Shown piece by piece: positions 1 to 28,891 of a stretch of DNA of 64,000 bases. Each line of letters opens with the position of its first letter. Position 1 is the stretch's first letter. The translations under genes and the position numbers were made by a program. The stretch is taken from positions 7,378,001-7,442,000 of the forward strand of contig NZ_CP134609.1 of NCBI RefSeq assembly GCF_031844705.1. Reading direction: 5' to 3'. This stretch comes from Streptomyces sp. ITFR-16 (GTDB lineage Bacteria; Actinomycetota; Actinomycetes; Streptomycetales; Streptomycetaceae). The notes below the pieces were generated by a model. It searched no databases and was not told the DNA's origin. It saw only the letters and a list, made by a program, of their open reading frames with translations.

Positions 1-418
1 GCTTGAGGGTCTCCGTCAGCCGCCACTCCCGGCCGCAGCTGTCCGCCGGCGCCGTCCCCCGGTACGGCCACAGATGGGCCGCCAGCCCGAGCACCACCAC
101 CGGAAGTCCGGCGGCCTCGGCGGCCACCAGCGCCCCGTGGCAGAGCACGGAGGTGACCAGGACATCGGGCCGCAGCCGTCGGACCGCACCCGCCACCGTC
201 GTGTACTGCTCGGCGCCCCGCACCGTCCAATGGCTCACCGACAGCGCCGTGTCGTCGTGCACGGGCGCCGCCTCCAGTCCGGCGGCGGCCACGGCGGACG
301 CGGCCCCCGGCCCGGCGAGGACCCGCACCGTGTGGCCCCGGCGGCGCAGCTCCCGGCCGACCGCGAGGGCCGGGTAGAGATAGCCGGGGTCGCCGAGCGG
401 GCACAGAAGGACGTTCAT
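1..418 (-). CDS. Glycosyltransferase, GT-B fold, UGT/MGT type (partial, N-terminal 139 residues)
   Basis: Reading the minus strand from ATG at 418 gives a protein starting MNVLLCPLGDPGYLYPALAV, with the GxxGHTVRVL-type turn at about residues 33-39. This is the usual start of UDP-glycosyltransferase and macrolide-glycosyltransferase N-terminal domains: P-G-Y-L-Y-P-ALAVGRELRRRGHTV. The frame stays open to the left edge, so the nucleotide-sugar-binding half is missing. Its ATG overlaps the TGA of the prolyl oligopeptidase gene (ATGA), so the two are very probably cotranslated as the last genes of the RiPP operon. I infer that it may glycosylate the modified peptide or confer self-resistance. The donor and acceptor cannot be read from this fragment. 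Confidence 0.75.
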   Translation of the reverse strand, partial: MNVLLCPLGDPGYLYPALAVGRELRRRGHTVRVLAGPGAASAVAAAGLEAAPVHDDTALSVSHWTVRGAEQYTTVAGAVRRLRPDVLVTSVLCHGALVAAEAAGLPVVVLGLAAHLWPYRGTAPADSCGREWRLTETLK

Positions 419-2550
419 CGCGGGACGCTCCCCGTCAGGTCGAGGCCCAGGTGGTGGGCGAAGAAGGCCATCACGTCCCCGTACAGCCGGGCGCTGCGCG
501 AGGCCCCGCGCGTGCCGTGGCCGACGCCGCGCTCGGTGCGCAGCACGACCGGCCCGGCCCCCGTGCCCGCCCACTGGAGCGCGGCGCACATCTTGCGGGC
601 GTGCCCGGGGTCCACGCGGGTGTCGCCGTCGAAGACGGCCAGCAGCACGGCCGGGTAGCGGGCGCCCTCGCGCACCCGGTGGTACGGGGAGTACGCGAGC
701 AGCCGGGCGAACTCGGCGGGGTCCGCCGCGCTGCCGTACTCGTCGCGCCAGCTCGCCCCCATCCCCGACAGCTCGTACCGCACCATGTCGAGCAGGGGCG
801 CCGCGCACACGACGGCCGCATAGGTCTCCGGGCGGCGGGTCAGCGCGGTGGCGGCCAGCAGACCGCCGTTGGAGCTGCCGAGGACACCGAGCCGTCCGGG
901 CGCCGCCCAGCCGGCCCCCAGCAGATGGTCGGCGGCGGCGTCGAAGTCCTCGAAGGTGTGGTGCTTGTGCTCGCGGCGCCCGGCCCGGTGCCACTCCTCG
1001 CCCTCCTCGCCGCCGCCGCGCACACAGGCCACCGCGTAGACCCCGCCCGCGCGCACCCAGGGCAGGGCCTGCGGGGTGAATCCGGGGGTCATCGAGGCGC
1101 CGAAGCCGCCGTAGCCGGTGAGGACGGCGGGGCGTGGCCGGTCGGGGCGGCCCTCGGGGGACATCACGAACATCCGCACCTCGGTGCCGTCGCGGGAGCG
1201 CACGGCCTCCTGGGTGACGCGCACGCCCTCGACGGGCGCTGCGGGCGGCGGCCCGCCCGGCCAGGGGCGCAGTTGCCCGCTGACCGCGTCGTAGTGCAGG
1301 ACGACGGTGGGTGTGATGTGGTCGGTGTACGCGAACCACAGCTCGTGTCCCGGCTCTTGACGGGCTGTCAGTCCGGTCACGGTGCCTTGTCCCGGCAGGG
1401 GGACGGTGACCGCCGGGGCGCCGGTCCCGGCGTCGTGCAGGGTCAGCTCGCCGACCGCGTGCCGGGTGCGTACGACCGCGAGCAGCGGCCGCTCCAGCGC
1501 CGGGCCGTCCAGCACCGCGAAGTCCTGGAGCACGGTGCCGGGCCGCTCGTCGACCAGGGTGCGCCAGTGTGCGGGGCCGGTGGCGCCGGGCGGGGCCGCG
1601 GCGATCCGGCCGCGCGGGGCGCCGGCGGTCGTACGGAGCAGCAGCGGTCCGCCGCCCGGGCGGGGGCGGACGACGGTGTGGGCGTCGGTGCCGTGCTGCA
1701 AGGGGCGCAGAGCGGGCCGGTCCGGGGCGCTCGCCGTCAGATCGGCGGTCCACAGATCGGTGCGGGGTGCGGTCCCCTCGCTGGCGCCGACGACCAGGAG
1801 CCGGCCGTCGGGGGAGGTGGCCACGGTGTAGTACTGGGTCTCCGGCCGTCCGGCGCCGAAGATCTCCGCGTCCCGCCCGGCCGGGGTGCCGACCTCGTGC
1901 AGATACACCCGCCGGTGCCGGCCCGCCCCGCCGGGAGTCTCCTCCGGCGGCAGCCGCCGCACGTAGTAGAAGGCCCGGCCGCCCGGCAGCCACGCCACGG
2001 GGGAGCGGCGGACCCGGTCCACGGGCCCGTCCACCACCTCGCCCGTCGCCGTGTCGAGCACGCGCAGCACCGAGTGCTCCGTACCGCCCGAGGACAGCTG
2101 CACGGCGACCAGGCCGCCCTCCCAGGACGGCTCCCAGGCGTCCAGCACCGTGGTGCCCGACGGGTCGGCCGCCAGCGGGTCGAGGAGCACCCGGGTCCGG
2201 CCGTCCTCCCGGACGGCGAGCACCGCGAGTTCGTGCCCCGGCCGCCTGAGCAGATGGAACTCCCGCCCGCCGCGCGGCACCGGCGGCCGGGCGCCGCCCC
2301 CGGCGAGCAGCGCCGCCATCCGCCCGTACAGCGCCTCACGGTCCGGCCAGCGCGCCTCCTCCTCGGCGTAGAGCAGATCCTGTGCGGCGCCCCACGCGGC
2401 GGTGGCGGGATCCGCCGGATCCTCCAGCCACCGGTAGGGGTCCGCCACCGGCTGCCCGTGGATCACCTCCACCGGGCCGCTGCGGGGCGCGGCCGGGTAG
2501 CCGGGCCGGGCCGGCGTCGGCCGGGCGTCGCGGGGCGGGGACACGGTCAT
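415..2550 (-). CDS. Prolyl oligopeptidase (family S9A)
   Basis: This 711-residue protein has the normal length and layout of S9A enzymes: a beta-propeller of about 70-430 and a C-terminal alpha/beta hydrolase domain. The nucleophile motif GSSNGG puts the catalytic serine near residue 560. The likely Asp is D643 in FDGDTRV and the His is H678 in GVGHG. VLTGYGGFG and WVRAGGVYAVACVRGGGE are the typical oxyanion/strand segments. The family cuts short peptides after proline, and some members macrocyclise RiPP cores. It lies 73 bp after the MFS gene and overlaps the glycosyltransferase by ATGA. The precursor has a proline directly before each repeat, so processing of the RiPP is the most economical role. 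I see no signal peptide, so it should act in the cytoplasm unless secreted by other means. RBS GGAG lies just upstream of the ATG. Confidence 0.88.
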   Translation of the reverse strand: MTVSPPRDARPTPARPGYPAAPRSGPVEVIHGQPVADPYRWLEDPADPATAAWGAAQDLLYAEEEARWPDREALYGRMAALLAGGGARPPVPRGGREFHLLRRPGHELAVLAVREDGRTRVLLDPLAADPSGTTVLDAWEPSWEGGLVAVQLSSGGTEHSVLRVLDTATGEVVDGPVDRVRRSPVAWLPGGRAFYYVRRLPPEETPGGAGRHRRVYLHEVGTPAGRDAEIFGAGRPETQYYTVATSPDGRLLVVGASEGTAPRTDLWTADLTASAPDRPALRPLQHGTDAHTVVRPRPGGGPLLLRTTAGAPRGRIAAAPPGATGPAHWRTLVDERPGTVLQDFAVLDGPALERPLLAVVRTRHAVGELTLHDAGTGAPAVTVPLPGQGTVTGLTARQEPGHELWFAYTDHITPTVVLHYDAVSGQLRPWPGGPPPAAPVEGVRVTQEAVRSRDGTEVRMFVMSPEGRPDRPRPAVLTGYGGFGASMTPGFTPQALPWVRAGGVYAVACVRGGGEEGEEWHRAGRREHKHHTFEDFDAAADHLLGAGWAAPGRLGVLGSSNGGLLAATALTRRPETYAAVVCAAPLLDMVRYELSGMGASWRDEYGSAADPAEFARLLAYSPYHRVREGARYPAVLLAVFDGDTRVDPGHARKMCAALQWAGTGAGPVVLRTERGVGHGTRGASRSARLYGDVMAFFAHHLGLDLTGSVPR

Positions 2551-2623: not shown

Positions 2624-3976
2624 TCAGTTGCCGCCGGTGCCGGGGCGCGGCACGGGGGGTGCCGGGACCAGCCCCACGGCCCCGGCCTCGTCGGGCGTCC
2701 GGCCGGAGGGTGCGACCGCGTCGCCGGGTGCGGGGTCCTCCGGGCCGTCGCCGCCGCCCTTTGCGTCGTCGGCGGTGGCGTCGAGGCTGGTCTCCCGCAA
2801 CAGGGGCACCGACGACACCAGCGTGACCACCGCCGCCGTGCCGGCCAGGACCAGCCAGGTGCGGCTGCCGCCCATGGAGTCCACGAACGAGCCGGCCAGG
2901 ACCGGTCCGACCGAGGCGAGACCGGCCATCATCAGCCCGGTCGCCGTGCTCACCCGGCCCAGCAGGTCGCGGGGCGCGAGCACCAGGACCGCGCGGCCGA
3001 CGACGATGCCCGCAGGCGGGCTGAAGAAGACGACCACGACGAGCACCGGGCCGAGGATCCAGGGGTGCGTGGTCCGGGAGAAGACGGCGAGGCCGAGGGC
3101 CCAGACGCCGCCGATCAGCAGGAACAGCCGGCCGGCGGTGATCCTCTTGATCAGCCAGGGCGCAGCGGCCGCGCCCAGCAGCCCCCCGACACCCGCGCAC
3201 GCCATCACCGCCCCGATCGCCGTGCCGCCGGCGCCGCTCTGGCGCAGCGAGACGACCATGGTCGTCTGCGCCGCCGCCGAGACGATGTTGATGCCCGCGG
3301 CGAAGAGCAGCGCCGCCAGCAGCGCCCGCTGGTGGGTGAGCCACCGCAGCCCGGCCGTCAGCCGGTTGTCGCGTTCGGAGGCCGCGACGCCCTGGGGCTG
3401 CCGGATGCCCATCCGCAGCACCAGCACGGCCGACACCCCGTACGTGGCGGCGTCGACCGCGAACGGCAGGATCGGGTCCAGGGTGAACAGCCAGCCGCCG
3501 AGGAACGGGCCGATCAGCGAACTCGACGCCATGGCGGTCTGGCTGCGGCTCAGCGCGTCGGTGAGGTCCTTCTCCGGCACCACGTCGCGCACGGCGATGG
3601 TGGCCGCCGGAGCGAAGAGCGCGGTGGCCGCGCCCTCGACCACGGCCACCGCGAGCAGATGCGCCTGGCCCAGGTCCCCGAGGCCCGAGGCCAGCGGAAT
3701 GCTGGCCAGGGCCACGAGCCGCACCAGATCGGTGCCGACCATGATCATGCGCCGGTCGAGCCGGTCGGCGAGATGGCCGGCCGGCAGGCGCAGCACCGTC
3801 CGCGTCACCAGCGAGCAGGTCGCGACCGTACCCGCCTGTGCGGCGCTGCCACCGATGGACAGCACGAGCAGGGGGAAGGCCAGCAGCGACAGCTGCGAAC
3901 CGAGGGTGGACAGCGTCGAACTGAGCCAGTAGCGGCGGAAGTCGGGGTTGGTGCGCAGAATGCCGGCGCTCTTCAT
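2624..3976 (-). CDS. MFS transporter, probable peptide exporter
   Basis: The 450-residue protein begins MKSAGILRTNPDFRRYWLSS, a standard opening of MFS proteins of the macrolide-efflux/enterobactin-exporter (DHA3) type (R-N-x-x-F-R-x-Y-W). About 12 hydrophobic segments follow. The loop motif G-x-L-A-D-R-x-x-R appears as GHLADRLDRR at about residues 61-70. The C-terminal ~50 residues are charged and proline-rich. Its ATG overlaps the TGA of the radical SAM gene (ATGA). Placed between maturase and peptidase, it is best read as the exporter and self-protection pump of the RiPP product. The substrate is inferred only from position. Confidence 0.85.
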   Translation of the reverse strand: MKSAGILRTNPDFRRYWLSSTLSTLGSQLSLLAFPLLVLSIGGSAAQAGTVATCSLVTRTVLRLPAGHLADRLDRRMIMVGTDLVRLVALASIPLASGLGDLGQAHLLAVAVVEGAATALFAPAATIAVRDVVPEKDLTDALSRSQTAMASSSLIGPFLGGWLFTLDPILPFAVDAATYGVSAVLVLRMGIRQPQGVAASERDNRLTAGLRWLTHQRALLAALLFAAGINIVSAAAQTTMVVSLRQSGAGGTAIGAVMACAGVGGLLGAAAAPWLIKRITAGRLFLLIGGVWALGLAVFSRTTHPWILGPVLVVVVFFSPPAGIVVGRAVLVLAPRDLLGRVSTATGLMMAGLASVGPVLAGSFVDSMGGSRTWLVLAGTAAVVTLVSSVPLLRETSLDATADDAKGGGDGPEDPAPGDAVAPSGRTPDEAGAVGLVPAPPVPRPGTGGN

Positions 3977-5169
3977 CCCAGCCGTCCGACCGCGTCCAGG
4001 CAGTCCAGCACACCGGCGTCGACCCGGTCCTGGAAGACGGCGCGTACGGCCGCCTCCTCGTCGTACTGGTAGTGGTCGTGGCAGCTGACCCAGCGGCCCT
4101 CGGTCTGCTCGGCGCTCAGATAGCCGTCGGTGACGGTGCCGACCTCCATGCCGGGCTTGCCCGCCGTCTCCCAGCAACTGGCCAGCACCCCGTCGGCGTT
4201 GATGACGGCGCCGTAGCGGCCGTCCGCGAAGGAGCAGGCCTGGCAGGGGACATGGGCGCGCGGACGGGTCACCGTGAAGCCGAGTTCCAGCGCGCGGGCG
4301 TGCCAGCGGACGAAGTCCCCGACGAGGCCGTCCTCGTGCAGCAGGTTGTTCGCGTAGCCGACGCCGACGTCTCCGACCCGGGCGAAGTGGATGCCGCAGC
4401 GGGCCGGGTCCAGGCGCGAGCCGAGGCGCTCGACGAGTTCGTCCACGCCGTTCCGGTTCAGATGCGAGACGTTGACCCGCAGCATCCAGCGCAGGGAGGT
4501 CCGTTCGATGGCCCGCGCGATGTTGGAGACGATGACGTCGAAGGTGCCGCCCCCGGACCGCTTGACCCGGATGGCGTCGTGGTCGGCCCGGTCGCCGTCG
4601 AAGGTCACCTGGACGGAGCCGAGGCCCGCCGCGTTGAGCTCCTTGGCGATCAGTGGCGTGAGCAGCGTGCCGTTGGACGTCATCGACGCGGTGAGCGGGC
4701 CCAGTTCCCGCGCCCGGGTGAGCAGGTCGCGGCAGCCGCGCGGGTTGAGCAGCGGCTCGCCGCCGAACAGCAGCAGCGACAGCCGGTCGAGTCCGGCCGC
4801 ATCCATGCGCGTCCGGGTGAAGTCCAGTACCTCGGTGACGCCTTCGGGTGTCAGCCGGGCGTGGCTGATCCGGGGCGGCCTGCTGCCGCCCTTGGGGTCC
4901 TGCGCGGTGTTCTGGAAGCAGTAGCCGCAGCCGAGGTTGCAGTCCGTGCTGGTCAGCACGGTGAGCGAGTACGAGGTGTAGGGCCGTACGTCGTACAGCC
5001 CCGCCTCGCGGAGATAGCGTTCGGCCGAGGGGCGCAGGGTGCCGTCGGGCTCCACCTGGCCGGGCCGCATCAGGGCGTATCCGCCGGCGCCCAGGAACCA
5101 CCACCCCCTGTCGGCGCGGATCAGACGGGCCCCGGCGGTGGGGACGGTGACGGACTGCGTACCGGGCAC
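3973..5169 (-). CDS. Radical SAM/SPASM peptide maturase
   Basis: This 398-residue enzyme has the radical SAM CxxxCxxC motif as C77, C81 and C84 (CNLGCGYC) after a ~70-residue N-terminal region. FGGEPLLN (135-142) is the SAM-binding GGE motif. A C-terminal SPASM-like auxiliary-cluster region has C309xxC312, C332 and C363. The order matches RiPP maturases that form thioether or carbon-carbon crosslinks. The GTG start at 5167-5169 follows the precursor by 105 bp, with a strong hairpin between them. The likely substrate is the neighbouring precursor with three W-C-G-V-H-Q blocks; Cys or Trp are plausible targets. The N-terminal 70 residues look too short for a full RRE domain, so leader recognition is unexplained. 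Confidence 0.88.
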   Translation of the reverse strand: MPGTQSVTVPTAGARLIRADRGWWFLGAGGYALMRPGQVEPDGTLRPSAERYLREAGLYDVRPYTSYSLTVLTSTDCNLGCGYCFQNTAQDPKGGSRPPRISHARLTPEGVTEVLDFTRTRMDAAGLDRLSLLLFGGEPLLNPRGCRDLLTRARELGPLTASMTSNGTLLTPLIAKELNAAGLGSVQVTFDGDRADHDAIRVKRSGGGTFDVIVSNIARAIERTSLRWMLRVNVSHLNRNGVDELVERLGSRLDPARCGIHFARVGDVGVGYANNLLHEDGLVGDFVRWHARALELGFTVTRPRAHVPCQACSFADGRYGAVINADGVLASCWETAGKPGMEVGTVTDGYLSAEQTEGRWVSCHDHYQYDEEAAVRAVFQDRVDAGVLDCLDAVGRLG

Positions 5170-5274: not shown

Positions 5275-5532
5275 TCAGAGGCTGTGCTCCTGGTGGACGC
5301 CGCACCACGGGGTGTCCTCGCCCTCCTCGGAGTGCGCGATGACCTCGGGCTCGTCGACCGACTCCTGGTGCACACCGCACCAGGCGACGTTGGACGCGGA
5401 GTGCGCGATCACCTCGGGCTCGTCGACCGACTCCTGGTGCACACCGCACCAGGCGACGTTGGACGCGGAGTGCGCGACGACCTCGGGGGCGTCCTCTGCG
5501 GGGGTCTCGGTGGGCTCGGTGTTCTCGGCCAT
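5275..5532 (-). CDS. Multi-core RiPP precursor peptide (85 residues, three repeats)
   Basis: The ATG at 5532 follows an ideal GGAGG six bases upstream. The 85-residue product has a short acidic leader (residues 1-16, ending D-A-P) followed by three repeats. Each starts E-V-(V/I)-A-H-S (17-22, 40-45, 63-68) and contains an identical W-C-G-V-H-Q (28-33, 51-56, 76-81). Repeats 1 and 2 are 23 residues long and nearly identical. Repeat 3 has a different 7-residue spacer (EEGEDTP) and ends the protein. A proline immediately precedes each E-V (P16, P39, P62), and P75 precedes the third W. The linkers are rich in Glu and Asp, as in RiPP leaders. The invariant Trp, Cys and His are plausible sites for the radical SAM enzyme and the P450. 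I do not recognise the family. Confidence 0.82.
   Translation of the reverse strand: MAENTEPTETPAEDAPEVVAHSASNVAWCGVHQESVDEPEVIAHSASNVAWCGVHQESVDEPEVIAHSEEGEDTPWCGVHQEHSL
5342..5479 (-). repeat. 69-bp tandem duplication inside the RiPP precursor gene
   Basis: Copies at 5342-5410 and 5411-5479 match at 67 of 69 positions by eye. The only differences are the last two bases, which include the Ile/Val change in E-V-(I/V)-A-H-S. Each copy encodes one 23-residue repeat. The third, C-terminal repeat is more diverged and two codons longer. Near-identity at synonymous sites points to a recent whole-unit duplication. Confidence 0.9.
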
Positions 5533-5788: not shown

Positions 5789-7036
5789 ATGGACACCGAA
5801 CCCGCCGTCCCGGCCGGCGCACCCGCACCTGTGGCGCGGCAGCGGCTGCCGGAGCCGCTCGGGGCGGACTTCCTGGCCCGCCCGGCCGAGACGCTGGCCG
5901 GAATCCGGGAGACCTGCCCGGTGGCCCGGGTCAGGACGCCCGCCGGACGCCCGGCCTGGCTCGTCACCCGGGCCGAGGACGTACGGGCCGGCTTCCTGGA
6001 CCCCCGCCTCTCACTCAGCGGCGGCCGTGTCCCCGACCCCACCGTCCGCCGCCGCGCGCTGGAGGTGTCGCTGGTCAACTACGACGCGCCCGAGCACACG
6101 CGGATCCGCCGCCTGGCGACACCGGCGCTGACCCCGGCCCGGATGGCCGCCCATCGCGAGCGCATCGAGCGCGCCGCAGCCGAACTCCTGGACGCGGCCG
6201 ATGCGGCGCGCGGCGCGGGGCCCGTCGAGCTGATGGACGCCTTCGCCCGCCCCTTCGCCTTCCGGTCCCTGTGCGAGGTCTTCGACGTACCGGAGGGGGA
6301 GCGGGCCGCGCTGTACGAGCCGGTGGCGTGTCTGGCGGACAAGACGGGCCGCACCGCCGCCGACATCGAGGGGAGCGTCGACCGCATCGACGCCTTCGTC
6401 CGCGACACGATGGCCCGGCGCGCGGCCGTCCCGGGAGACGACGTCGTCTCCCGCGTCCTGGTGGCCTGGCAGGAACAGGGCGGGGCCACCGAGGACGAAG
6501 TGGCCTCGCTCCTCGCGATGCTGCTGCTGGCCGGCTTCGACAGCACTGTGCAGGCCATCGGCATGAGCGTGGTGGCGCTGCTGGGCCACCGGGACGTCCA
6601 GAACACGCTGCGCGAGGAGCCGGCCCGGATCCCGCGCGCGGTCGACGAACTGCTGCGCTGGGACACCCCGGGCCCCTTCAGCACCAAGCGGGTGGCCCTG
6701 GAGGACGTCCGGTTCGGCGACACGGTCATTCCGGCGGGCAGCGGTGTCCTGCTGTCCGTGGCGGCGGCCAACCACGACCCGCGCTGCCACGCCGACCCCG
6801 GCACGCTGGATCCGGACCGGAGCACCGCGAGCCGCCATCTGACCTTCGGTCTGGGCCCGCACTACTGCCCGGGATCGGCCCTGGCCCGGCTGGAGCTCAC
6901 GGTGGCCCTGACCGGCGTCCTCGTACGCTGGCACCGACTGGAACCGGCGGTGCCACTGGACGAACTGACCTGGACCGGCGGCTACTTGCACCGCCGGCTC
7001 GCCGCGCTGCCGGTACGTCCCTGCGGGCCCGCCTAG
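5789..7036 (+). CDS. Cytochrome P450, probable RiPP-tailoring oxygenase or crosslinker
   Basis: This 415-residue protein has all the class signatures: I-helix A248-G-F-D-S-T253 (AGxDST), K-helix E287-L-L-R290 (ExxR) and the heme loop F-G-L-G-P-H-Y-C with axial Cys360. Its size and lack of a membrane anchor match soluble bacterial CYPs that use separate ferredoxins; none is encoded nearby. It is divergent from the precursor operon across a 256-bp intergenic region, so co-regulation is likely. Clustering with a precursor whose cores contain Trp and His recalls P450s that make aromatic crosslinks in biarylitides and atropopeptides. That reaction is inferred. I chose the ATG at 5789 because the upstream extension has an arginine-rich, non-CYP sequence. 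Confidence 0.9.
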   Translation: MDTEPAVPAGAPAPVARQRLPEPLGADFLARPAETLAGIRETCPVARVRTPAGRPAWLVTRAEDVRAGFLDPRLSLSGGRVPDPTVRRRALEVSLVNYDAPEHTRIRRLATPALTPARMAAHRERIERAAAELLDAADAARGAGPVELMDAFARPFAFRSLCEVFDVPEGERAALYEPVACLADKTGRTAADIEGSVDRIDAFVRDTMARRAAVPGDDVVSRVLVAWQEQGGATEDEVASLLAMLLLAGFDSTVQAIGMSVVALLGHRDVQNTLREEPARIPRAVDELLRWDTPGPFSTKRVALEDVRFGDTVIPAGSGVLLSVAAANHDPRCHADPGTLDPDRSTASRHLTFGLGPHYCPGSALARLELTVALTGVLVRWHRLEPAVPLDELTWTGGYLHRRLAALPVRPCGPA

Positions 7037-9274: not shown

Positions 9275-10222
9275 TCAGGGGCGGCTGGTCAGATATCCGC
9301 CCATGGTGGTGAAGTACTCCGTCGCGGGAAGCTCCCGGCCGTCCTCGGTGCGCACCCGGGTGATGGCGAGCCCGTGGTTGCGGCCGGTCCGGGCGTCGGC
9401 CCCGGCGACGATCGCCACGCCCTCGCCCTCGCGGTAGAAGATGCGGCCGGGCGTCCCGCCGTACAGACCCTCGGAGACCACGGCGGAGAGGATTTCGAGC
9501 CGCTTGCCCCGGTGGTAGGTGAACGCGCTGGGGTACGGCTCCGACTGGGCGCGGACCAGACGCTCCAGGGCGTCGGCCGGCCAGTTCCAGTCCATGCGGA
9601 TGTCCTCGGTGGACCGCTTGTGGAAGAAGCTCGCCTGCGAGCGGTCCTGCTTGGTGAACTCCGTCTGCCCGGTGGCGATGAGGTCCAGCGCGCCCGTGGT
9701 GACCGGGCCTATCAGGTCCACGGTCTTGTGGAAGAGGTCGGTGGCGGTGTCCTTCGGCCCGACCGCGACCGCTTCCTGGCGGACGATGTCGCCGGCGTCC
9801 AGCTCGTCGTTCATCATGTGCGCGGTGACGCCCACTTCGGACTCGCCGTTGATCAGGGCCCAGATCAGCGGGGAGAAGCCCGCGTACTTCGGGAGCAGCG
9901 AGTCGTGGACGTTCAGCGTGCCGCGGCGCGGGAGGCGGAAGATCCGCGGCGGGATCCAGGTCCGCCAGTTGTTGGCGACGATGATGTCCGGGTCGGCTTC
10001 CTTGAGGCGCTCGAACAGCTCGTCGTCGTCCGGACGGTTCCGGATCAGCACCGGCACGCCGTGCTCCTCGGCGAGGTCGGCAACGGAGTCGCTCCAGATC
10101 TTCTCGTACGCGTGCTCGCTCTTGGGGTGCGTCACGACCAGGACCACGTCGTGTTCGGAGTCCAGGAGGGCTTGCAGGGTGCGGTGCCCCCAGGTCTGGT
10201 AACCGAACATGACGACCCGCAT
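9275..10222 (-). CDS. cchA: Coelichelin N5-hydroxyornithine formyltransferase CchA
   Basis: This 315-residue protein is of the Fmt type. The 10-formyl-tetrahydrofolate transferase motif N-V-H-D-S-L-L-P-K-Y-A-G-F-S-P lies at about residues 107-121, with the catalytic Asn, His and Asp pattern completed by N-D-E-L-D-A-G-D-I. The ~110-residue C-terminal domain resembles FmtC. In coelichelin biosynthesis it formylates N5-hydroxyornithine to give the hydroxamate. The ATG at 10222 is preceded by AGGAGG. It is transcribed divergently from cchB, with two iron boxes between, which fits iron-repressed expression. The assignment rests on family plus complete cluster synteny. Confidence 0.93.
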   Translation of the reverse strand: MRVVMFGYQTWGHRTLQALLDSEHDVVLVVTHPKSEHAYEKIWSDSVADLAEEHGVPVLIRNRPDDDELFERLKEADPDIIVANNWRTWIPPRIFRLPRRGTLNVHDSLLPKYAGFSPLIWALINGESEVGVTAHMMNDELDAGDIVRQEAVAVGPKDTATDLFHKTVDLIGPVTTGALDLIATGQTEFTKQDRSQASFFHKRSTEDIRMDWNWPADALERLVRAQSEPYPSAFTYHRGKRLEILSAVVSEGLYGGTPGRIFYREGEGVAIVAGADARTGRNHGLAITRVRTEDGRELPATEYFTTMGGYLTSRP

Positions 10223-10265
10223 GGGGTTCCTCCTCAGCGTGGGGAATAAAATGATCGACGGTAAG

Positions 10266-10284
10266 TAAAGCAAGGCTTGCCTTA
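10266..10284. promoter_or_regulatory. Iron box (DmdR1/IdeR type) near cchA
   Basis: TAAAGCAAGGCTTGCCTTA matches the 19-bp consensus TTAGGTTAGGCTAACCTAA at about 12 positions, with an intact GGCT centre. It lies 44-62 bp upstream of the cchA ATG, where a repressor would block its promoter. Confidence 0.6.
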
Positions 10285-10368
10285 GTTTGCAACGCGTGTG
10301 CGCCGCGCCCCAGTTGACTACATCAATGCCGGGGGTGTCCGTTCTGTCCCGTCGACATGGTTGTAGGA

Positions 10369-10387
10369 TTAGCTTAGGCTTACCTAA
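10369..10387. promoter_or_regulatory. Iron box near cchB
   Basis: TTAGCTTAGGCTTACCTAA matches the IdeR/DmdR1 consensus at 17 of 19 positions. It sits 89 bp upstream of the cchB start in the cchA-cchB divergent region (10223-10475). Confidence 0.85.
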
Positions 10388-10475
10388 ATTACTGCGGGTC
10401 GCTCCATCGGTGTGCCCGCCTACCGCTCTTTTCCCCCACGCCTGACAGGCGGCTTCCCCGCACGATGGGAGTGAC

Positions 10476-11831
10476 ATGTCACAGGTTCGTCCTGGCGACG
10501 CACCACCGGTCCACGACCTCATTGGTATCGGCTTCGGGCCGTCCAATGTGGCCATGGCCATCGCGATCAGCGAGCACAATGCGCGCCACGGTGCGCAGGA
10601 GGCGGTGAGCGCTCAATTCTTCGAGCAGCAGCCGCGCTTCGGCTGGCACCGCGGGATGCTCATCGACGACGCCACCATGCAGGTGTCCTTTCTCAAGGAC
10701 CTGGTGACGCTCCGGAATCCGTCCAGTGAGTTCAGCTTCCTCTGCTATCTGAAGAGCAAGGGGCGGCTGATCGACTTCATCAACCACAAGAACCTCTTCC
10801 CCCTCCGGGTCGAATTCCACGACTACTTCGAGTGGGCCGCGGCCCAGGTCGACGACCTGGTCTCCTACGACCACGAGGTCGTCGGCGTCACCCAGGTCGT
10901 CCGGGACGGCGCCGTGGAGTTCCTGGACGTGACGGTCCGCTCGGGGGAGGGGCTCACCGTCCACCGCGCCCGCAACCTCGTCATCGGCACCGGGCTGCGC
11001 CCCCTCGTACCCGAAGGCGTCGAACGCGGTGACCGCGTCTGGCACAACTCCGAACTGCTCGCCCGCGTAGGGGAGCTGGACGGCACCTCGCCCTCCCGCT
11101 TCGTCGTCGTGGGCGCCGGCCAGAGCGCCGCCGAGAACGTCGCCTATCTGCACCGCCGCTTCCCCGAAGCGGAGATATGCGCCGTCTTCTCCCGCTACGG
11201 CTACAGCCCCGCCGACGACAGCAGCTTCGCCAACAAGATCTTCGACCCGGACGCGGTCGACGAGTTCTACGCCGCGCCCGAGAGCGTCAAGCGCCGGCTC
11301 ATGGACTACCACGGGAACACCAACTACTCGGTGGTCGACATCGACTTGATCGACGACCTGTACCGGCAGATGTACCAGGAGAAGGTGCTCGGCACCGAGC
11401 GGCTGCGCTTCCTCAACGTCTCCCGCCTCACCGCGGTCAAGGAGACGGCGGAGAAGGCCAGCGCCACCGTGACCTCCCTCGTCACGGGCGAGGAGACCCT
11501 CCTGGACGCCGATGTCGTGGTGTTCGCCACCGGCTACAGCCCCGCCGACCCCCTCGGCCTCCTGGGCGAGGTCGGCGAGCACTGCCTGCGCGACGAGGAG
11601 GGCCGGGTCCGTGTCGAGCGCGACTACCGCATCGCCACCGACGCCGGGCTCAACTGCGGCATCTACCTCCAGGGCGGTACGGAGCACACCCACGGCATCA
11701 CCTCGGCCCTGCTGTCCAACACGGCGATCCGGGTCGGCGAGATCCTCGACTCGCTGCTGGACCGGAGTGTGAAGTCCGCGCCCGACGCGGCCCGCCCGGT
11801 CGCAGACGAGACCGGCAGCAACGCCCGCTAG
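10476..11831 (+). CDS. cchB: L-ornithine N5-monooxygenase CchB
   Basis: This 451-residue flavoprotein has the FAD-binding G-I-G-F-G-P-S-N at about residues 17-24 and F-L-K-D-L-V-T near 72. The NADPH-binding G-A-G-Q-S-A-A-E lies at about 213-220, and F-A-T-G-Y-S-P (the D-x3-L-A-T-G-Y signature) at about 350. These are the marks of class B N-hydroxylating monooxygenases. It makes N5-hydroxyornithine, the shared precursor of both hydroxamate building blocks. Size and motif spacing match SidA/PvdA/CchB. It heads the rightward cch operon and is followed by the uptake genes after 110 bp. A long GC-rich inverted repeat (11847-11855 with 11904-11912) in that gap could be a weak attenuator. Confidence 0.95.
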   Translation: MSQVRPGDAPPVHDLIGIGFGPSNVAMAIAISEHNARHGAQEAVSAQFFEQQPRFGWHRGMLIDDATMQVSFLKDLVTLRNPSSEFSFLCYLKSKGRLIDFINHKNLFPLRVEFHDYFEWAAAQVDDLVSYDHEVVGVTQVVRDGAVEFLDVTVRSGEGLTVHRARNLVIGTGLRPLVPEGVERGDRVWHNSELLARVGELDGTSPSRFVVVGAGQSAAENVAYLHRRFPEAEICAVFSRYGYSPADDSSFANKIFDPDAVDEFYAAPESVKRRLMDYHGNTNYSVVDIDLIDDLYRQMYQEKVLGTERLRFLNVSRLTAVKETAEKASATVTSLVTGEETLLDADVVVFATGYSPADPLGLLGEVGEHCLRDEEGRVRVERDYRIATDAGLNCGIYLQGGTEHTHGITSALLSNTAIRVGEILDSLLDRSVKSAPDAARPVADETGSNAR

Positions 11832-11941
11832 GCCGGCCGCGGGAGAGGGGCGGGAGGCGAGGGCGCGGGCACACCTCCTCGTGGGTGTGGTGTCCGGCCG
11901 CCGTCCCGCCCCAGTGGATCAGAGGGATAACGTACGTCGAC

Positions 11942-13000
11942 ATGAGCACGACTGCAGTGGAGCGGCCCCTGCCCAGGGGCATAACAGGGGCCCGTCACCG
12001 ACGGGTCATGGGTTTGGGCGCGCTCGGGGTGATCGTCCTGGTCGTGGGGGGCCTGTCGCTGGCCGTCGGGGCGCGCTCGCTGAGCCCCGCCGAGGTGTGG
12101 CACGGGCTGTTCGGCGGCCCGGAGTCCGACCAGCGGCTCTCCGAGATCCGGCTCATCGTGCAGACCGTGCGCGTGCCCCGCACGGTGCTCGGGATCGTGG
12201 CCGGCCTCGCCCTGGGGGTGGGCGGGGCGCTGATCCAGGGCTACACGCGCAACCCGATCGCGGACACGGGCCTGCTGGGAGTCAACACCGGCGCCTCGTT
12301 CGCCGTGGTGTCGGTGATCGCCGTGTTCGGCCTCACCCATCCGTTCCAGTACGTCTGGTTCGCCTTTCTGGGCGCGGCGGTCGCCGGTGTCGTCGTGTTC
12401 GGCCTCGCGAGCATCGGCCGGGGTGCCGGCAATCCGCTGACGCTCGCTCTCGCCGGGCAGGGCGTCACGGTCTTCCTCGCGGCGATGACCACCGCTGTCG
12501 CGCTGTCCGACGTGAAGTCGCTGAACGCGCTGAGGTTCTGGAACGCGGGTTCGGTGGCCGGGGTCGGCTTCGACGTCATCTGGCCCGTGACCGCCTTCAT
12601 CGGGGTCGGGCTGGTGCTTGCCCTGGTCATGCTGCCCTCCCTCAACCTGCTCAACCTCGGTGACGACGTGGCGCGCGGGCTCGGTGTGAACATCGCGCTG
12701 TGCCGTACGGTCGGCATCGTCGCCATCACCCTGCTGGCCGGCGCGGCGACGGCGGCCTGCGGCCCCATCGCCTTCCTCGGACTCATGGTGGCCCATGTGG
12801 CCCGCTATCTGACCGGCCCCGACTACCGCTGGCTGGTGCCGTACGCGGGTCTGCTCGGGGCCGTCGTCCTGCTGGTCTGTGACATCGTCGGACGCCTGGT
12901 GGTGCGGCCGGGCGAACTGGACGCGGGTGTCGTCGTCGCCCTGCTCGGCGCCCCGTTCTTCGCGGTGCTGGTCTGGCGAGGAAAGTTCAGGAGCGCATGA
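11942..13000 (+). CDS. cchC: Ferri-coelichelin ABC transporter permease CchC (FecCD family)
   Basis: This 352-residue FecCD/BtuC-type protein has about nine to ten membrane segments. It has the typical R-x-P-R-T-x-x-G-x-x-A-G-x-A-L-x-x-G-G sequence (residues ~77-98, [20 protein letters not shown]) and the [10 protein letters not shown]-x-G-L-L-G-V-N-x-G motif. It pairs with CchD as the channel for importing iron-loaded siderophore. Its TGA overlaps the cchD ATG. The ATG at 11942 has only a weak upstream RBS. The N-terminus, a short basic segment before the first helix, is normal for the family. Confidence 0.92.
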
Positions 13001-14057
13001 ACGGGACGGAAATGAAGCCATCGGTGGCGCCGGGCGTCCGCCTCGGCCAGGTCTCGTTCGTCTGGCGGCCCTGGCCCGTCCTGGTCACGCTGCTGCTGGC
13101 GGCGGCGGCCTTCCTGGTGTTCTGCGTGTCCATCGGGGTCGGCGACTTCCCCATCGGGCTGTCCCGGGTGATCGCCACGATCCTCGGCCGGGGCGAGCAG
13201 GTCGACGAGTTCGTCATCATGGACCTGCGGATGCCGCGCGCCCTGGCCGGGGTCGTCGTGGGCGTCGCGCTGGGAGTGTCCGGCGCGATCACCCAGTCCG
13301 TCGCGCGCAACCCGCTGGCCAGCCCCGACATCCTGGGGATCACCGGAGGGGCCAGCGCGGTCGCGGTGTTCCTGGTGACGGTCTCCGGCGGGACGGCCGC
13401 GGCGATCGCCCACTCCGTGGGCCTCTCGGCGGCGGCGCTCCTGGGCGGTCTCGGCACGGGACTGCTCGTGTACTTCCTGGCCTGGCGGCGCGGGATCGAC
13501 GGCTTCCGGCTCATCCTCATCGGGATCTCGGTCAGCGCGCTGATGGAGGCGCTGACGACCTGGCTGCTGGTCACGGCGGACATCAAGGACGTGGCCCGGG
13601 CCCAGGCATGGCTGGTCGGCTCCCTGGACAACCGGTCGTGGGACGACGTCCGGGTGGCGCTCTGGTGCACGGTCGTGCTTCTGGCCGTGGTGAGCTGCGT
13701 GGCCTTCCAGTTCAAGCCGATGCACCTCGGCGACGAGGTGGCCGCCGGTCTCGGCGTCCGGTACACCCGGGTGCGGGCCGTCCTGCTGCTGTGCGCGGTC
13801 CTGCTGGCCGCGGCGGCGGTGAGCGCGGCCGGGCCGGTGCCGTTCGTCGCCCTGGTGGCACCGCAGGTGGCCATGCGCCTGGCGCGCTGCCCGACGCCGC
13901 CGATGGTGGCCTCCGGCCTGGTGGGCGCGCTGCTGCTGACCGGATCCGATCTGCTCGCCCGTACGGCGCTGCCGATCGGCCTGCCGGTCGGGGTGGTCAC
14001 CGCCGCGATCGGCGGGCCCTTCCTGGTATATCTGCTGGTCCGGGCGAACCTCAGCCG

Positions 14058-14061
<4 letters not shown>
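12997..14061 (+). CDS. cchD: Ferri-coelichelin ABC transporter permease CchD (FecCD family)
   Basis: This 354-residue protein is a second FecCD permease, with R-M-P-R-A-L-A-G at about 77-84 and [15 protein letters not shown] at about 102-116. [12 protein letters not shown] and [11 protein letters not shown] near the C-terminus are the usual coupling and closing motifs. It overlaps cchC by four bases (ATGA) and cchE by four bases, so the three are translationally coupled. It forms the membrane heterodimer of the siderophore importer. Confidence 0.92.
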
Positions 14062-14939
<878 letters not shown>

Positions 14940-14964
14940 GGTCCGGATCACGGAATTACCCCAG

Positions 14965-15013
14965 TAAGGCTAGGCTGTCCTCACTTCACCGGGATAAGGT
15001 TTGGCTGCCCTTG
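14965..15013. promoter_or_regulatory. Tandem iron boxes upstream of cchF
   Basis: TAAGGCTAGGCTGTCCTCA (14965-14983) and TAAGGTTTGGCTGCCCTTG (14995-15013) match the iron-box consensus at about 14 and 13 of 19 positions. Their centres are 30 bp apart, about three helical turns, so two dimers could bind the same face. The second ends 13 bp before the cchF start. Confidence 0.75.
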
Positions 15014-15026
15014 TGAAGGGGCCTCA

Positions 15027-16106
15027 GTGACAGCGCGAAAGCAAGGGATTCGGATGCTCCTCGACAGAACGTCGCCCAGGAAGACTTGGCGGCGGTTGGC
15101 CGCGGTACTGACCGCGGCGACCCTCGGCGTCGGCCTTCTCGCGGGATGCGGCTCCGACGCGGAGGACAAGCCGAGCGACAAGGCTCCGGCCGCCGCCAAG
15201 GGCGCGTTCCCGGTCACCGTGGAGCACGCGTTCGGGTCCACGAAGATCACCAAGGCCCCCCAGCGGGTCGTCTCCGTCGGATACACGGACGACCAGACCA
15301 TCCTGGCGTTCGGCATCAAGCCGGTGGGCATGGTCGACCAGTACCCGAACCCCGAGGGCAAGACCCCCGACGTCAACACCCAGTGGCCCTGGGTGAAGGA
15401 CAAGTGGGGCGACTCCCGCCCCGAGGTCATCATGAAGAACGGTGACTCCGGCCCCAACTACGAGAAGATCGCGGGCCTCCGGCCGGACCTGATCATCGCC
15501 GTCTACTCGGAGATCGACCAGGCCGCCTACGACAAGCTGTCGAAGATCGCCCCGACGGTCGGCCGCACCAAGGCCGAGAAGGAGCCCTTCAGCGCGCCCT
15601 GGCAGGACAACGCGCTGCACATCGCCAAGGCCCTCGGCAAGGAGAAGGAGGGCAAGGAGATGGTGGCCGGCATCCAGTCGCAGCTGGACACCGCCGCGAA
15701 GGCACACCCCGAGTTCGCCAAGCAGACCGCCGTGGCGCTCTCCTGGTACGACAACTCCGTCGCGCCCTTCACCACCACCGATGTGCGCGGACGCCTGCTG
15801 ACCGGCATCGGCTACAAGGGCGCCACCGAGATCGACAAGATCGCCGGCGGCAAGTTCTACACCAAGCTGTCGCCCGAGCGCATGGACCTCGTCGACGTCG
15901 ACCGCATCTTCGTCATCAACGACAAGGCCGACCAGGAGGCCCTGAAGAAGTCCAAGCTCTTCAGCAACCTCAAGGCGGTCAAGGAGGGACGCGTCTCGTA
16001 CCTCCTCGACGGCGAGGGCCCGGCGGTCGGCGCCGCCATCTCCCAGGGCACGCTGCTGTCCATGCCGTACGCGATCGACGAGCTCGTCAAGGCGGCCGGT
16101 CAGTGA
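15027..16106 (+). CDS. cchF: Ferri-coelichelin-binding lipoprotein CchF
   Basis: This is a 359-residue substrate-binding protein of the FepB/FhuD class. A basic N-terminus, a hydrophobic stretch and the lipobox L-L-A-G-C (Cys about residue 41) indicate export and lipid anchoring. The mature part has the T-K-A-P-Q-R-V-V-S-V strand and the G-L-R-P-D-L-I-I motif typical of siderophore receptors. A GTG at 15027 with AAGGGG upstream is given as the start. An ATG at 15054 with its own AGGGA would give a more typical signal peptide and may be the true start. It has its own iron-boxed promoter, separate from cchCDE. Confidence 0.92.
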   Translation: MTARKQGIRMLLDRTSPRKTWRRLAAVLTAATLGVGLLAGCGSDAEDKPSDKAPAAAKGAFPVTVEHAFGSTKITKAPQRVVSVGYTDDQTILAFGIKPVGMVDQYPNPEGKTPDVNTQWPWVKDKWGDSRPEVIMKNGDSGPNYEKIAGLRPDLIIAVYSEIDQAAYDKLSKIAPTVGRTKAEKEPFSAPWQDNALHIAKALGKEKEGKEMVAGIQSQLDTAAKAHPEFAKQTAVALSWYDNSVAPFTTTDVRGRLLTGIGYKGATEIDKIAGGKFYTKLSPERMDLVDVDRIFVINDKADQEALKKSKLFSNLKAVKEGRVSYLLDGEGPAVGAAISQGTLLSMPYAIDELVKAAGQ

Positions 16107-16146
16107 TGTCCGCGCCGTCCCGCCCCCGACCCGAACTGGCCCACGT

Positions 16147-17940
16147 GTGAGCACCACCACGACCCCCGCCCCCCCGCCCCCGGCGACCCTGCGCACGGCG
16201 ACGGGGGGTGAGGCCACCCGGTGGCTCGCGGCGCACTGCCGCGAAGTGCCGTGGCTGTCGGCCGCGACGCTGTTCACCACGGTGGCCGGGGCGGCGCTCC
16301 AGGTCCTCCCGGTGCTGCTGCTGGGCCAGGTGGTCGACGGGGTCGTGGACGGTGAGTCACGCGCGGTGCTGGTCAGGGTCGGGGCGCTGATGGTGGCCGC
16401 CGCGCTGCTCGGCGCGGCGGCCACCGCGGCATCGACATATCTGATCGGACGGCTCGGCGCCGACCTGCTGGCCACGCTGCGGGAGGGCGCCGTCCGCGCG
16501 GTGCTGGGCCTGCCGAGCGCGCGGATAGAGCAGGTCGGCCGGGGCGATGTGCTCTCCCGGGTGGGCGACGACGTCGCCGTGCTGTCCCGGGGCATCCGGA
16601 GCGCGATCCCCACCGTGTTCTCGGCGGGGGTACTCGTCGCCATCGCCACCGTCGGCATGTTCGGACTGGACTGGCGGCTCGGGCTCGCGGGCGCCGGCGC
16701 GCTGCCGGCGTACGCGCTGGCGCTGCGCTGGTATCTGCCCCGCTCCGCCCCGCTCTACCGCAAGCAGCGGACGGCCCAGGCCGACCGCGCCCAGGCGTTG
16801 ATCAGCGGCCTGAACGGAATCGACACGGTCCGGGCGTACCGCCTGGAGGGCGCGTTCCGCGAGAAGGTCACCGACGAGTCGTGGCGGGTGCGCGATCTCG
16901 GCATCGAGGTGTTCCGGTTCTTCGGCCGGTTCGTCGGCCGGGAGAACCGGGCCGAGTTCATCGGCCTGGTCCTGATCCTGCTGGTGGGGTACGCCCTGCT
17001 GGAGGGCGACGCGGCCACCCTCGGCGAGGTGTCGGCCGCCCCGCTGATGTTCCACCGGCTGTTCACCCCGCTCGGGGCGATCATGTTCACCTTCGACGAG
17101 GCGCAGAAGTCGGGCGCGAGCCTGACCCGTCTGGTCGGGGTGCTGGGGGAGGACGCCGAGGAGCGGCTGGTGGGCGACGCCGGCGTGACACCGGCGGCGG
17201 ACGTGCCGTACCCGGTACGGGTGGAGGGGCTGACGTTTCGTTATCCCGACACCGAGGACCCGGTGCTGTGCGACGTGAGTCTGACGATCCCGGCCGGCGG
17301 CTCGCTCGCGCTGGTGGGGGCGACGGGCGCCGGCAAGTCGACGCTGGCCGCGCTGATCGCCGGCATCGGCACCCCGCAGGAGGGCTCGGTGCGCATCGGG
17401 CCGACCGACCTCGCGGATCTGGACGAGGCGGGCGCGCGGGCGCTGGTGAGCATCCTCACACAGGAGACCCATGTGTTCTCCGGTCCGCTCTCCGACGACC
17501 TGAGGCTGGCCGCTCCCGAGGCGACGGACGCCGAACTGCTGGACGCCCTGCGCACGGTGGGGGCCGGCGGCTGGGTCGAGGCGCTGCCCGGCGGACTGCA
17601 CACCACCGTCGGTGAGGGCGGTGAGCGGCTGGACGTCACCAAGGTGGCCCAGATCGCCCTGGCCCGGCTGGTGCTGGCCCGCTCGCCCGTGGTGGTGCTC
17701 GACGAGTCCACCGCGGAGGCGGGCAGCGAGGGCGCGGCCGAACTGGAGCGCGCCGTGCTGGCCGCATGCGCGGGCCGCACCACGCTGTTCGTGGCGCACC
17801 GGCTGACCCAGGCGATGGCGGCGGACCGGATCGCCGTGCTGGACGCGGGACGGGTGGTGGAACAGGGCACCCACCAGGAGTTGGTCGCTCAGGGCGGCCG
17901 GTACGCACGACTGTGGCGGGCCTGGCGGGAAGGTAGTTAG
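16147..17940 (+). CDS. cchG: ABC exporter half-transporter CchG (intact Walker motifs, degenerate signature)
   Basis: This 597-residue protein fuses a six-helix transmembrane domain (about 30-320) to a nucleotide-binding domain. Walker [10 protein letters not shown] (K397), Q-loop L-T-Q-E-T-H-V-F, Walker B with D519-E520 and the H-loop H551 are intact. The ABC signature L-S-G-G-Q is replaced by L-D-V-T-K at 495-499. CchI has the reverse defects, so the two should form one heterodimer with a single working ATP site. The role is export of apo-coelichelin, inferred from cluster position. It starts at GTG 40 bp after cchF and shares its promoter. Confidence 0.9.
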
Positions 17941-17951
17941 GCCAACCTTAG

Positions 17952-17970
17952 TTAGGTTAGGCTCGGCTGA
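17952..17970 (+). promoter_or_regulatory. Iron box upstream of the NRPS gene cchH
   Basis: TTAGGTTAGGCTCGGCTGA has a perfect left half (12 bases) and 15 of 19 matches overall. It starts 12 bp after the cchG stop and ends 28 bp before the cchH ATG. An overlapping inverted repeat AACCTTAGTTAGGTT at 17944-17958 may extend the site. Confidence 0.8.
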
Positions 17971-17998
17971 ACACCTTGGAAGGGAAGCGGAGTCTTCG

Positions 17999-26900: not shown

Positions 26901-28891
26901 TCAAGGCCGACGACTCCACGCACTACCCGTTCACCTGGGTCGTCACGCCCGGCGAACGGCTCACCGTCAAGCTGGAGCACCGCGACGACGACACCGAGGG
27001 CGCCCGCCGCCTCCTCGACGGCTATCTGCGGGTCCTGGAGGACCTGGCCCGGTCGACCGGGCCGCTGGGCGCCCTGCCGGGCCTCGCACCGGCCCCCGAA
27101 CCCGCCGGGCGCACGGACGTCGGCACCGACACCGTCGTCGACCGCTTCGACCGGGCGGCGGACCGCGACCCCGGACGCACCGCCCTCGTCGCCGATGGCT
27201 CGAGACTGACCTTCGGCGAACTGCGCGACCGCAGCCGCGCGGTGGCCGGGGTGCTCGCCGCACGCGGTATCGGACCGGAGAAGGCCGTGGGGCTCGCCGT
27301 CCCGCGCTCCCTCGACTCGATCGTGGCGCTGTTCGCCGTACTGCGGGTCGGCGCCGCCTATGTGCCGCTGGAGCTGGACCACCCGGACGAGCGGATCGCG
27401 GCGATCGTCGCGGACGCCCGGCCCGAGGTGATCCTCACCGTGAGCGCCGTCGCGCCCCGGCTGACCGGCGCGCTCATCGAGCTGGACCGCCCGCTGCCCG
27501 AGGCGGAGCCGTACCTCACGTTCGCGCCCGGGGACCCGGACCGGCTGCGGCACCCCGCGTACACGATCTACACCTCCGGTTCGACCGGGCAGCCCAAGGG
27601 CGTGGTGACCGAGTACGCCGGGCTCACCAACATGCTGGTCAACCACCAGCGCCGGATCTTCGAACCGGTCCTCGCGGAGCACGGGCACCGCACCTTCCGG
27701 ATCGCGCACACCGTGTCGTTCGCCTTCGACATGTCGTGGGAGGAGCTGCTGTGGCTCGCCGACGGCCACGAGGTGCACATCTGCGACGAGGAACTGCGCC
27801 GCGACGCGCCCCGGCTGGTCGAGTACTGCCTCGCGCACGGCATCGACGTCATCAACGTGACCCCGACCTACGCCCAGCAACTGGTGGCCGAGGGGCTGCT
27901 CGACAACCCGGAGCGGCGCCCCGCGCTGGTGCTGCTGGGCGGCGAGGCCGTCACCCCGGGCCTGTGGCAGCGGCTCGCCGAGACGGAGGGGACGGTCGGC
28001 TACAACCTCTACGGCCCCACCGAGTACACCATCAACACCCTCGGCGTCGGCACCTTCGAATGCCAGGACCCGGTGGTCGGTGTGGCCATCGACAACACCG
28101 AGGTGTACGTCCTGGACCCGTGGCTGCGCCCGCTGCCGGACGGCGTCCCCGGCGAGCTGTACGTGTCGGGCATCGGCATCGCCCGCGGCTACCTCGGACA
28201 GCCCGCCCAGACGTCGCACCGGTTCGTCGCCTGCCCGTTCGGCGCGCCCGGCGAGCGCATGTACCGCACCGGGGACCTGGTGGTCCGGCGGCCCGACGGC
28301 AATCTGTCCTACCTGGGCCGCACCGACCAGCAGGTCAAGATCCGCGGCCACCGGGTCGAACCCGGGGAGGTCGAGGCCGCGTTCGCCGCGCACCCGGCGG
28401 TGCGGTTCGCCGCCGCGGTCGCCCAGAAGGACCCGCAGGTCGACGGGGCGTACCGGCTGGCCGCCTACCTGGTGCTCGACGGCGCCGACCTGGCCGCCGT
28501 CGCCGCCGAAGTGGGCGCCGGACTGCCGGACTTCCTGCGCCCGACGCACTACGCCGAGGTCGACAGCATCCCGCTGACGGTCAACGGCAAGGCCGACACC
28601 AAGGCGCTGCCCGAGCCCAAGCCGCTGGGCGTGCTGACCGGGGCGGGGGAGCGCGCGCCCGAGACCGGGACCGAGATCACGGTGTGCGAGTTCTTCGCCG
28701 AGGCACTGGACCTGGACGACGACGAGGTGAGCGCGGTCAGTGACTTCGTGTCCCTCGGCGGGCACTCCATGCTGGCGGTGCGGCTGATAGGGCTGCTCCG
28801 ACGGGAGTACGGTCCTGTGATCACCATCCGAGACCTGCTCACCCTGCGAACCCCCGAAGCGATTGCCGGCCACCTCGATGAACACTCCTGA
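17999..28891 (+). CDS. cchH: Coelichelin nonribosomal peptide synthetase CchH (three modules)
   Basis: The 3630-residue enzyme reads A-PCP-E / C-A-PCP-E / C-A-PCP. A1 has T-S-G-S-T-G near residue 286. The PCP serines are S679, S2169 and S3590. E domains carry HHxxxDGVSW at 848 and HHxxxDAVSW at 2340. C2 has HHIIADG at 1325. C3 has YHLLLWDG at 2739, keeping the second, catalytic His. Specificity codes read DINYWGGIGK (A1), DFWNIGMVHK (A2) and DMENLGLINK (A3), which I recall as formyl-hydroxyornithine, threonine and hydroxyornithine in CchH. Both PCPs before E domains have GGDS; the last has GGHS. There is no thioesterase. Residues 1-140 contain a remnant C-A linker (ARWNDT) without a C domain. 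RBS GGAG precedes ATGATG. Coelichelin is a tetrapeptide, so module 1 must act twice. Confidence 0.97.

Follow-up and report, generated by a model that had tools for sequence, protein, structure and literature searches.

An 85-residue open reading frame in the window (the whole 64,000-nucleotide stretch of Streptomyces sp. ITFR-16 DNA analysed here) is predicted from its sequence to be a three-core RiPP precursor for the radical-SAM enzyme encoded next to it (rSAM1; Table 1). The original prediction held that a prolyl oligopeptidase of the same cluster cuts this precursor after the prolines at its repeat borders; judged by the sequences of related loci, a general rule of proline-border cutting does not hold. 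The best explanation overall, to which we give slightly less than even confidence, is that the motif EVxAH acts as a shared tag, that an S8 subtilisin cuts at it, and that the peptidase trims leaders and linkers here. Under this proposal, rSAM1 would cross-link the cores through Cys thioethers, the EVxAH tag would be recognised, and the S8 subtilisin would cut at or near it. The prolyl oligopeptidase would go with the radical-SAM side of the system, most likely trimming after leader prolines; in multi-core lineages, including that of the window, it would also trim after whatever proline lies between cores. Proline before E-V would be a frequent variant of the tag that the peptidase can use here, and not a rule that sets product borders.

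Table 1. Features of the radical-SAM locus. Positions refer to the window unless prefixed by L003, the region of the window genome that reaches left of the window (L003 position = window position + 15000).
Feature	Position	Strand	Basis or remark
Predicted precursor peptide, 85 aa	5275..5532	(-)	translation and homologues; acidic leader and three cores EV(V/I)AHS...WCGVHQ
Three repeats, residues 17-39, 40-62, 63-85	5278..5484	(-)	each starts with EV(V/I)AHS
rSAM1, radical-SAM enzyme	3973..5169	(-)	CxxxCxxC, reduced C-terminal Cys set
MFS transporter	2624..3976 (L003:17624-18976)	(-)	family scan
S9A prolyl oligopeptidase	415..2550	(-)	Ser560/Asp643/His678; S1 Trp601, Arg645
Glycosyltransferase-like gene	1..418, extends left of the window (L003:14405-15418)	(-)	family scores under curated cut-offs
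Cytochrome P450, divergent	5789..7036	(+)	family scan
Companion 69-aa aroma-sacti peptide, ends EPEVQAHSEIAGGALF	L003:9461-9670		between haem-oxygenase-like and cyclase genes

On one strand, the precursor gene is followed by those for rSAM1, the MFS transporter, the prolyl oligopeptidase and the glycosyltransferase-like protein. The P450 has a relative in 20 of 63 homologous loci and in 17 of the 22 multi-core loci. Left of the window lie a SARP-type (BTAD) domain gene and the genes of a shared module, which encode a second radical-SAM enzyme, a haem-oxygenase-like enzyme, the companion aroma-sacti peptide, a cyclase/AAA protein, an S8 subtilisin and a GAF protein. Relatives of these left-hand genes recur near many homologues, and relatives of the companion peptide are present in many related loci. 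The genes scanned, which reach from the second radical-SAM gene as far as the P450, include no LanKC synthetase gene; a promoter and terminator scan found nothing, and a plasmid search returned no match to the precursor. A large NRPS gene (window 9275-28891), preceded by formyltransferase-, ornithine-hydroxylase- and siderophore-transport-like genes, all named by reading, apparently belongs to a separate cluster.

The 85-residue frame has the properties of a multi-core RiPP precursor, being a small ORF that adjoins a maturase gene, combines a leader with repeated cores, and is conserved across species together with rSAM1; it has no NCBIfam match at E 0.1. Its N-terminal part, MAENTEPTETPAEDAP, is followed by the three repeats with their WCGVHQ motifs. 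Prolines occur at residues 7, 11, 16, 39, 62 and 75, Trp at 28, 51 and 76, and Cys at 29, 52 and 77. The translation bears out the predicted placement of the prolines, with P16, P39 and P62 each directly before E-V and P75 directly before the third Trp, and cutting in silico after every proline gives pieces of 7, 4, 5, 23, 23, 13 and 10 residues, among them the expected 23-, 23-, 13- and 10-mers. The accompanying argument, that the match between prolines and repeat borders was unlikely to be chance, does not survive. Repeats 1 and 2 are identical at 67 of 69 bases (TRF: period 69, 96% matches), so that P39 and P62, which end copied repeats, count as one event. Furthermore, since the phase of the repeat is a free choice, any residue that occurs once per repeat can be named a border.

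The activity of rSAM1 is suggested by both its predicted structure and its sequence relatives. The CNLGCGYC motif and Cys258, 309, 312 and 363 are invariant in 28 homologues, Cys332 is off the invariant list, and Pfam returned no SPASM match. The best fold match of the rSAM1 model is 5why (Z 20.5, rmsd 4.9, 348 residues, 16% identity), followed by anSME (Z 19.3), TigE (18.9) and ChlB (18.8), with residues before about 60 barely covered by the comparison. The titles of entries 5why and 5wgg refer to thioether formation in sactipeptides, and the enzyme is presumably CteB. The best NCBIfam models are Cys-peptide maturases, the highest scoring 106.6 bits against a cut-off of 525. Because the model lies nearest 5why and the best sequence models, albeit far below their cut-offs, are Cys-peptide maturases, rSAM1 likely makes a Cys thioether, consistent with one Cys per core. 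Trp is not essential in the cores, as WC is missing from every core in 40 of the 63 loci. A gene for a DUF6895 protein lies near rSAM1 in 31 of the 63 loci, single-core ones such as L031 and L035; a title in the reference list of PMC13352647 mentions a DUF6895 epimerase involved in modifying lasso peptides, a hint that such loci may make D-residues.

By sequence, the cluster peptidase is an S9A prolyl oligopeptidase, as had been predicted. Both its beta-propeller (PF02897) and S9 catalytic domain (PF00326) score above Pfam gathering thresholds, and its catalytic triad is intact. Trp601 and Arg645, assigned to the S1 pocket by alignment with the prolyl endopeptidase 2bkl, are the residues that we take to hold proline in S9A enzymes. 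They are kept in 45 and 44 of 47 homologues, respectively, the remainder being gaps; likewise, wherever a homologue's best match extends over the catalytic Ser, Asp and His (44 or 45 of 47, with gaps in the others), these residues are unchanged. These active-site and S1 residues are retained even where the precursor has no proline after the tag.

To compare border prolines with the peptidase, we used a radical-SAM alignment scan, which gave 64 loci, and whole-genome searches, which added more; we kept the 63 loci for which a precursor was identified and peptidase status could be scored. Precursors were picked by EVxAH-like letters and a required downstream Cys. The peptidase was scored as present above 300 bits, and as absent when absent from the cluster DNA examined. 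Ten of the 64 loci were dropped (L032, L033, L041, L050, L062, L064, L072, L076, L078, L079) because the contig broke off close to the gene, the search yielded no EVxAH precursor or the relationship was distant, and L013 was dropped from the count as cut. Duplicates were left out (L012 of L020, L015 of L030, L134 of L060, L135 of L070, L136 of L041, L139 of L039), as were L130 and L131, rSAM1 relatives at 40% for which no precursor was found. L062 and L064 are Micromonospora rSAM1 relatives with no EVxAH precursor found in the cluster DNA examined; L064 carries a small ORF with repeated CG(V/I)QIGA.

The peptidase is encoded in the cluster of 48 of the 63 loci. Among these 48, proline precedes EVxAH in all copies in 18, in some copies in 2 and in none in 28; the last are homologues of the very kind that the original prediction had taken to speak against it, and include the multi-core loci L025, L026 and L027, where Ala, Val or Leu takes the place of the border proline. 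The 15 loci without a cluster peptidase comprise three with border proline (L112, L132 and L133) and 12 with none. Although 20 of the 23 border-proline loci have the peptidase, Fisher's test over the 63 loci gives p = 0.22. On the radical-SAM tree, which is of a quick kind with three long end branches, peptidase status changes seven times and border proline six times. Across five independent pairs (starred branches), border proline differs in the same way as the peptidase in 0.7 on average, in the opposite way never, and shows no difference in 4.3. The tree therefore gives no support to a link between border proline and peptidase, and with so few pairs the sample is too small to exclude one.

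Genomes of the loci without a cluster peptidase differ in what they encode elsewhere. A 47-54% relative is present for L031, L037 and L043, and weaker ones for L042, L048 and L061, while the genomes of L049, L057, L059, L060 and L069 have no peptidase relative above 35 bits. Only remote matches (38-43%) were found in G479, G449 and G351, the genomes of L112, L115 and L132, and G282 (L133) has no match at E 1e-20. In L069, several genes contain frameshift-like breaks. L115 encodes a multi-core precursor with three tags (L115:13252-13566), cores like ICGVFDKDLANSDDVIAHS and no proline, and has no prolyl oligopeptidase in the cluster.

The remaining prolines of the precursors bear on where the peptidase may act. 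It is kept in 28 of the 41 single-core loci, where no separation of cores is needed. In 20 of the 48 peptidase-bearing loci there is no proline after the first EVxAH, so that the enzyme, if it acts on those precursors, must cut in the leader. Proline at or before the first tag is found in 48 of 48 loci with the peptidase and in 14 of 15 without, and leader proline thus does not discriminate. Between cores, 42 of 43 stretches (measured between successive core Cys) contain proline in the peptidase-bearing multi-core precursors, compared with 2 of 4 in the multi-core loci without peptidase (L069 and L115); these counts lack independence, since repeats arise by copying and are shared among close species. 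The L025 precursor has no proline between cores 3 and 4, and in L025, L026 and L027 proline stands directly before WC instead of at the border. Given the 42 of 43 stretches and the proline before WC in these three loci, a proline-dependent separation with a floating site may still apply in multi-core lineages. The same 42 of 43 counts against leader trimming alone, as it exceeds what a pure leader-trimming role would need.

In its distribution, the peptidase travels with rSAM1 and not with the S8-containing module, which points to a specific job. In an order-wide sample of 391 genomes, 72 encode the haem-oxygenase-like enzyme and 32 rSAM1, with both in 27 of those 32; the two genes are sometimes far apart, for example in G251 and G265. 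A peptidase match at E 1e-90 is present in 18 of 22 haem-oxygenase-bearing genomes with rSAM1 versus 5 of 45 without, a comparison that covers 67 of the 72 genomes, the remaining five all having rSAM1. In the five rSAM1-less genomes with a match, the peptidase is on another contig than the haem-oxygenase gene, and two of these assemblies consist of 940 and 980 contigs. Of 20 haem-oxygenase loci, 18 have no strong rSAM1 match; all 18 encode an S8 protease and none has the peptidase in the locus DNA. At E 1e-90 it is absent from 16 of these 18 genomes and lies elsewhere in the other two, G237 and G265.

EVxAH is common to the window precursor, the companion 69-aa peptide and lanthipeptide-type precursors in loci without the peptidase. 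Of 117 tag copies, 116 retain its His and all are followed by a Cys downstream, the latter a feature that the selection pattern itself required. The companion peptide scores 75.3 bits against the NF045560 cut-off of 30, whereas the window precursor gives no NCBIfam match. In L117-L119 and L121-L129, lanthipeptide-type precursors reading EVEAHSVLDLQ adjoin the same module, and L122 encodes a RamC/LanC-like synthetase, a protein in which RamC, kinase and weak LanC domains were recognised. Because the companion and lanthipeptide-type peptides share it, EVxAH is probably a common element for recognition or leader removal.

Proline before the tag is common in the rSAM1-less loci, where 14 of the 18 companion peptides carry it, as do 11 of 22 precursor-like ORFs; among the latter, it occurs in 11 of the 14 that read EVEAHSVLDLQ and in none of the other 8. 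Ten further haem-oxygenase regions (L140-L149) have it in 5 of 6 companion peptides and in 0 of 7 precursor-like ORFs. A further ORF, in L145, was taken to be a companion peptide lacking proline and is left out of these seven. Proline is thus common before the tag without the peptidase, yet is not a fixed part of it, since 11 of 22 and 7 of 7 precursor-like ORFs lack it. Within rSAM1 loci, proline is present in 29 of 32 companion peptides where the peptidase is encoded and missing from 8 of 10 where it is not (L013 left out; L076, on a cut contig, is among the ten with its status undecided). We also considered cutting of the companion peptide by the peptidase at Pro-Glu-Val, and rejected it as the 14 proline-bearing companions above come from loci without the enzyme.

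An S8 gene is present in the cluster DNA of 49 of the 63 loci, made up of 36 of the 48 peptidase-bearing loci and 13 of the other 15. For the 14 loci without S8 in the cluster DNA, a wider search covered seven genomes: six have it elsewhere, and the L070 genome has no S8 match at E 1e-40. The S8 protease AmyP is described as acting at a (T/S/A)EVE motif in class III lanthipeptides (PMC10885120). By analogy with AmyP, and from its co-occurrence with the tag, we infer that cutting at or close to EVxAH is most likely the work of the S8 subtilisin.

Two other accounts of the processing seem to us doubtful, and about equally so. In the one originally proposed, the peptidase would cut after Pro16, Pro39, Pro62 and Pro75 and so define the 23-, 23-, 13- and 10-mers. 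What stands of it is the placement of the prolines, the S9A assignment, the tie of the peptidase to rSAM1 and the near-constant inter-core proline; proline also precedes every tag copy in the window, in the ten Streptomyces loci nearest to it in the tree and in two Catenulispora-type loci (L014 and L030). The borders themselves fare worse, with proline absent there in most peptidase-bearing loci and present in a few without the enzyme, no support from the tree, and no proline before WC in repeats 1 and 2 to match P75. The alternative that the S8 subtilisin does all cutting at EVxAH, while the peptidase degrades released leaders or acts elsewhere, draws on S8 being the protease present both with and without the peptidase, on EVxAH as the shared motif and on the proline-free multi-core precursor of L115, whose locus has S8. 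It also has a precedent in noursin, which was reported to form in S. lividans with norA and norKC alone despite an S9 peptidase gene (PMC10206099), but it sits poorly with a peptidase tied to rSAM1 and not to the S8 module. That the 85-aa protein stays uncut and works as one repeat protein, for example in metal binding, is highly improbable: each repeat carries one His and one Cys and the tag His is conserved, but single-core loci are the majority (41, against 22 multi-core), and peptidase and transporter genes adjoin the precursor.

Beyond the preferred reading, in which tag, S8 protease and peptidase act together, a wider arrangement is conceivable, if on balance unlikely: the shared module may serve both radical-SAM Cys peptides and class III lanthipeptides via the EVxAH tag, sometimes from elsewhere in the genome, with clade-specific peptidases such as the prolyl oligopeptidase added. 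If true, EVxAH as a class-independent tag with its own protease would predict product ends in many uncharacterised actinobacterial clusters and provide a tool for leader removal; the proteases that remove RiPP leaders are described as a recognised gap (PMC10885120). A tag found across RiPP classes with a movable module merits follow-up more than the proline borders do, and proline beside a prolyl oligopeptidase gene is by itself no evidence of a cut site. Among open-licence papers, searched mostly at title level, we found no description of the EVxAH tag or the precursor family, and open-licence searches returned no paper on aroma-sacti, haem-oxygenase-like RiPP genes with Kitasatospora, multiple-core thioether radical-SAM RiPPs or lanthipeptides with an iron-containing redox enzyme.

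Several known systems resemble parts of this locus. The companion peptide scores as aroma-sacti (NF045560), although it is encoded by a separate gene and the precursor itself does not match. Thioether radical-SAM RiPPs (the SCIFF maturase CteB, PapB ranthipeptides and sactipeptides) are similar in the fold of rSAM1 near 5why/5wgg and in the likeness to Cys-peptide maturase models with one Cys per core; here, however, no NCBIfam cut-off is reached, the precursor has no NCBIfam match, and prolyl oligopeptidase, P450 and glycosyltransferase-like genes lie alongside. The biarylitide myxarylin, likewise a small-peptide RiPP, also comes with a P450 and with a prolyl oligopeptidase that is described as the likely leader-removal enzyme, but its precursor is single and short and the available part of the source mentions no radical-SAM gene (PMC12951456). 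AmyP-type S8 leader proteases find a parallel in the EVE-like tag and the co-conserved S8 gene, whereas the tag here is EVxAH, often preceded by proline, and its cleavage by S8 is putative. In the class III lanthipeptide flavipeptin, the S9 enzyme FlaP cuts the leader after Pro(-12) (PMC10885120), a precedent for the trimming of leaders and linkers that we propose for the prolyl oligopeptidase. The window locus shares with it an in-cluster S9 prolyl oligopeptidase and leader prolines; unlike flavipeptin, a radical-SAM and not a LanKC gene adjoins the precursor, and the prolines at issue lie between cores.
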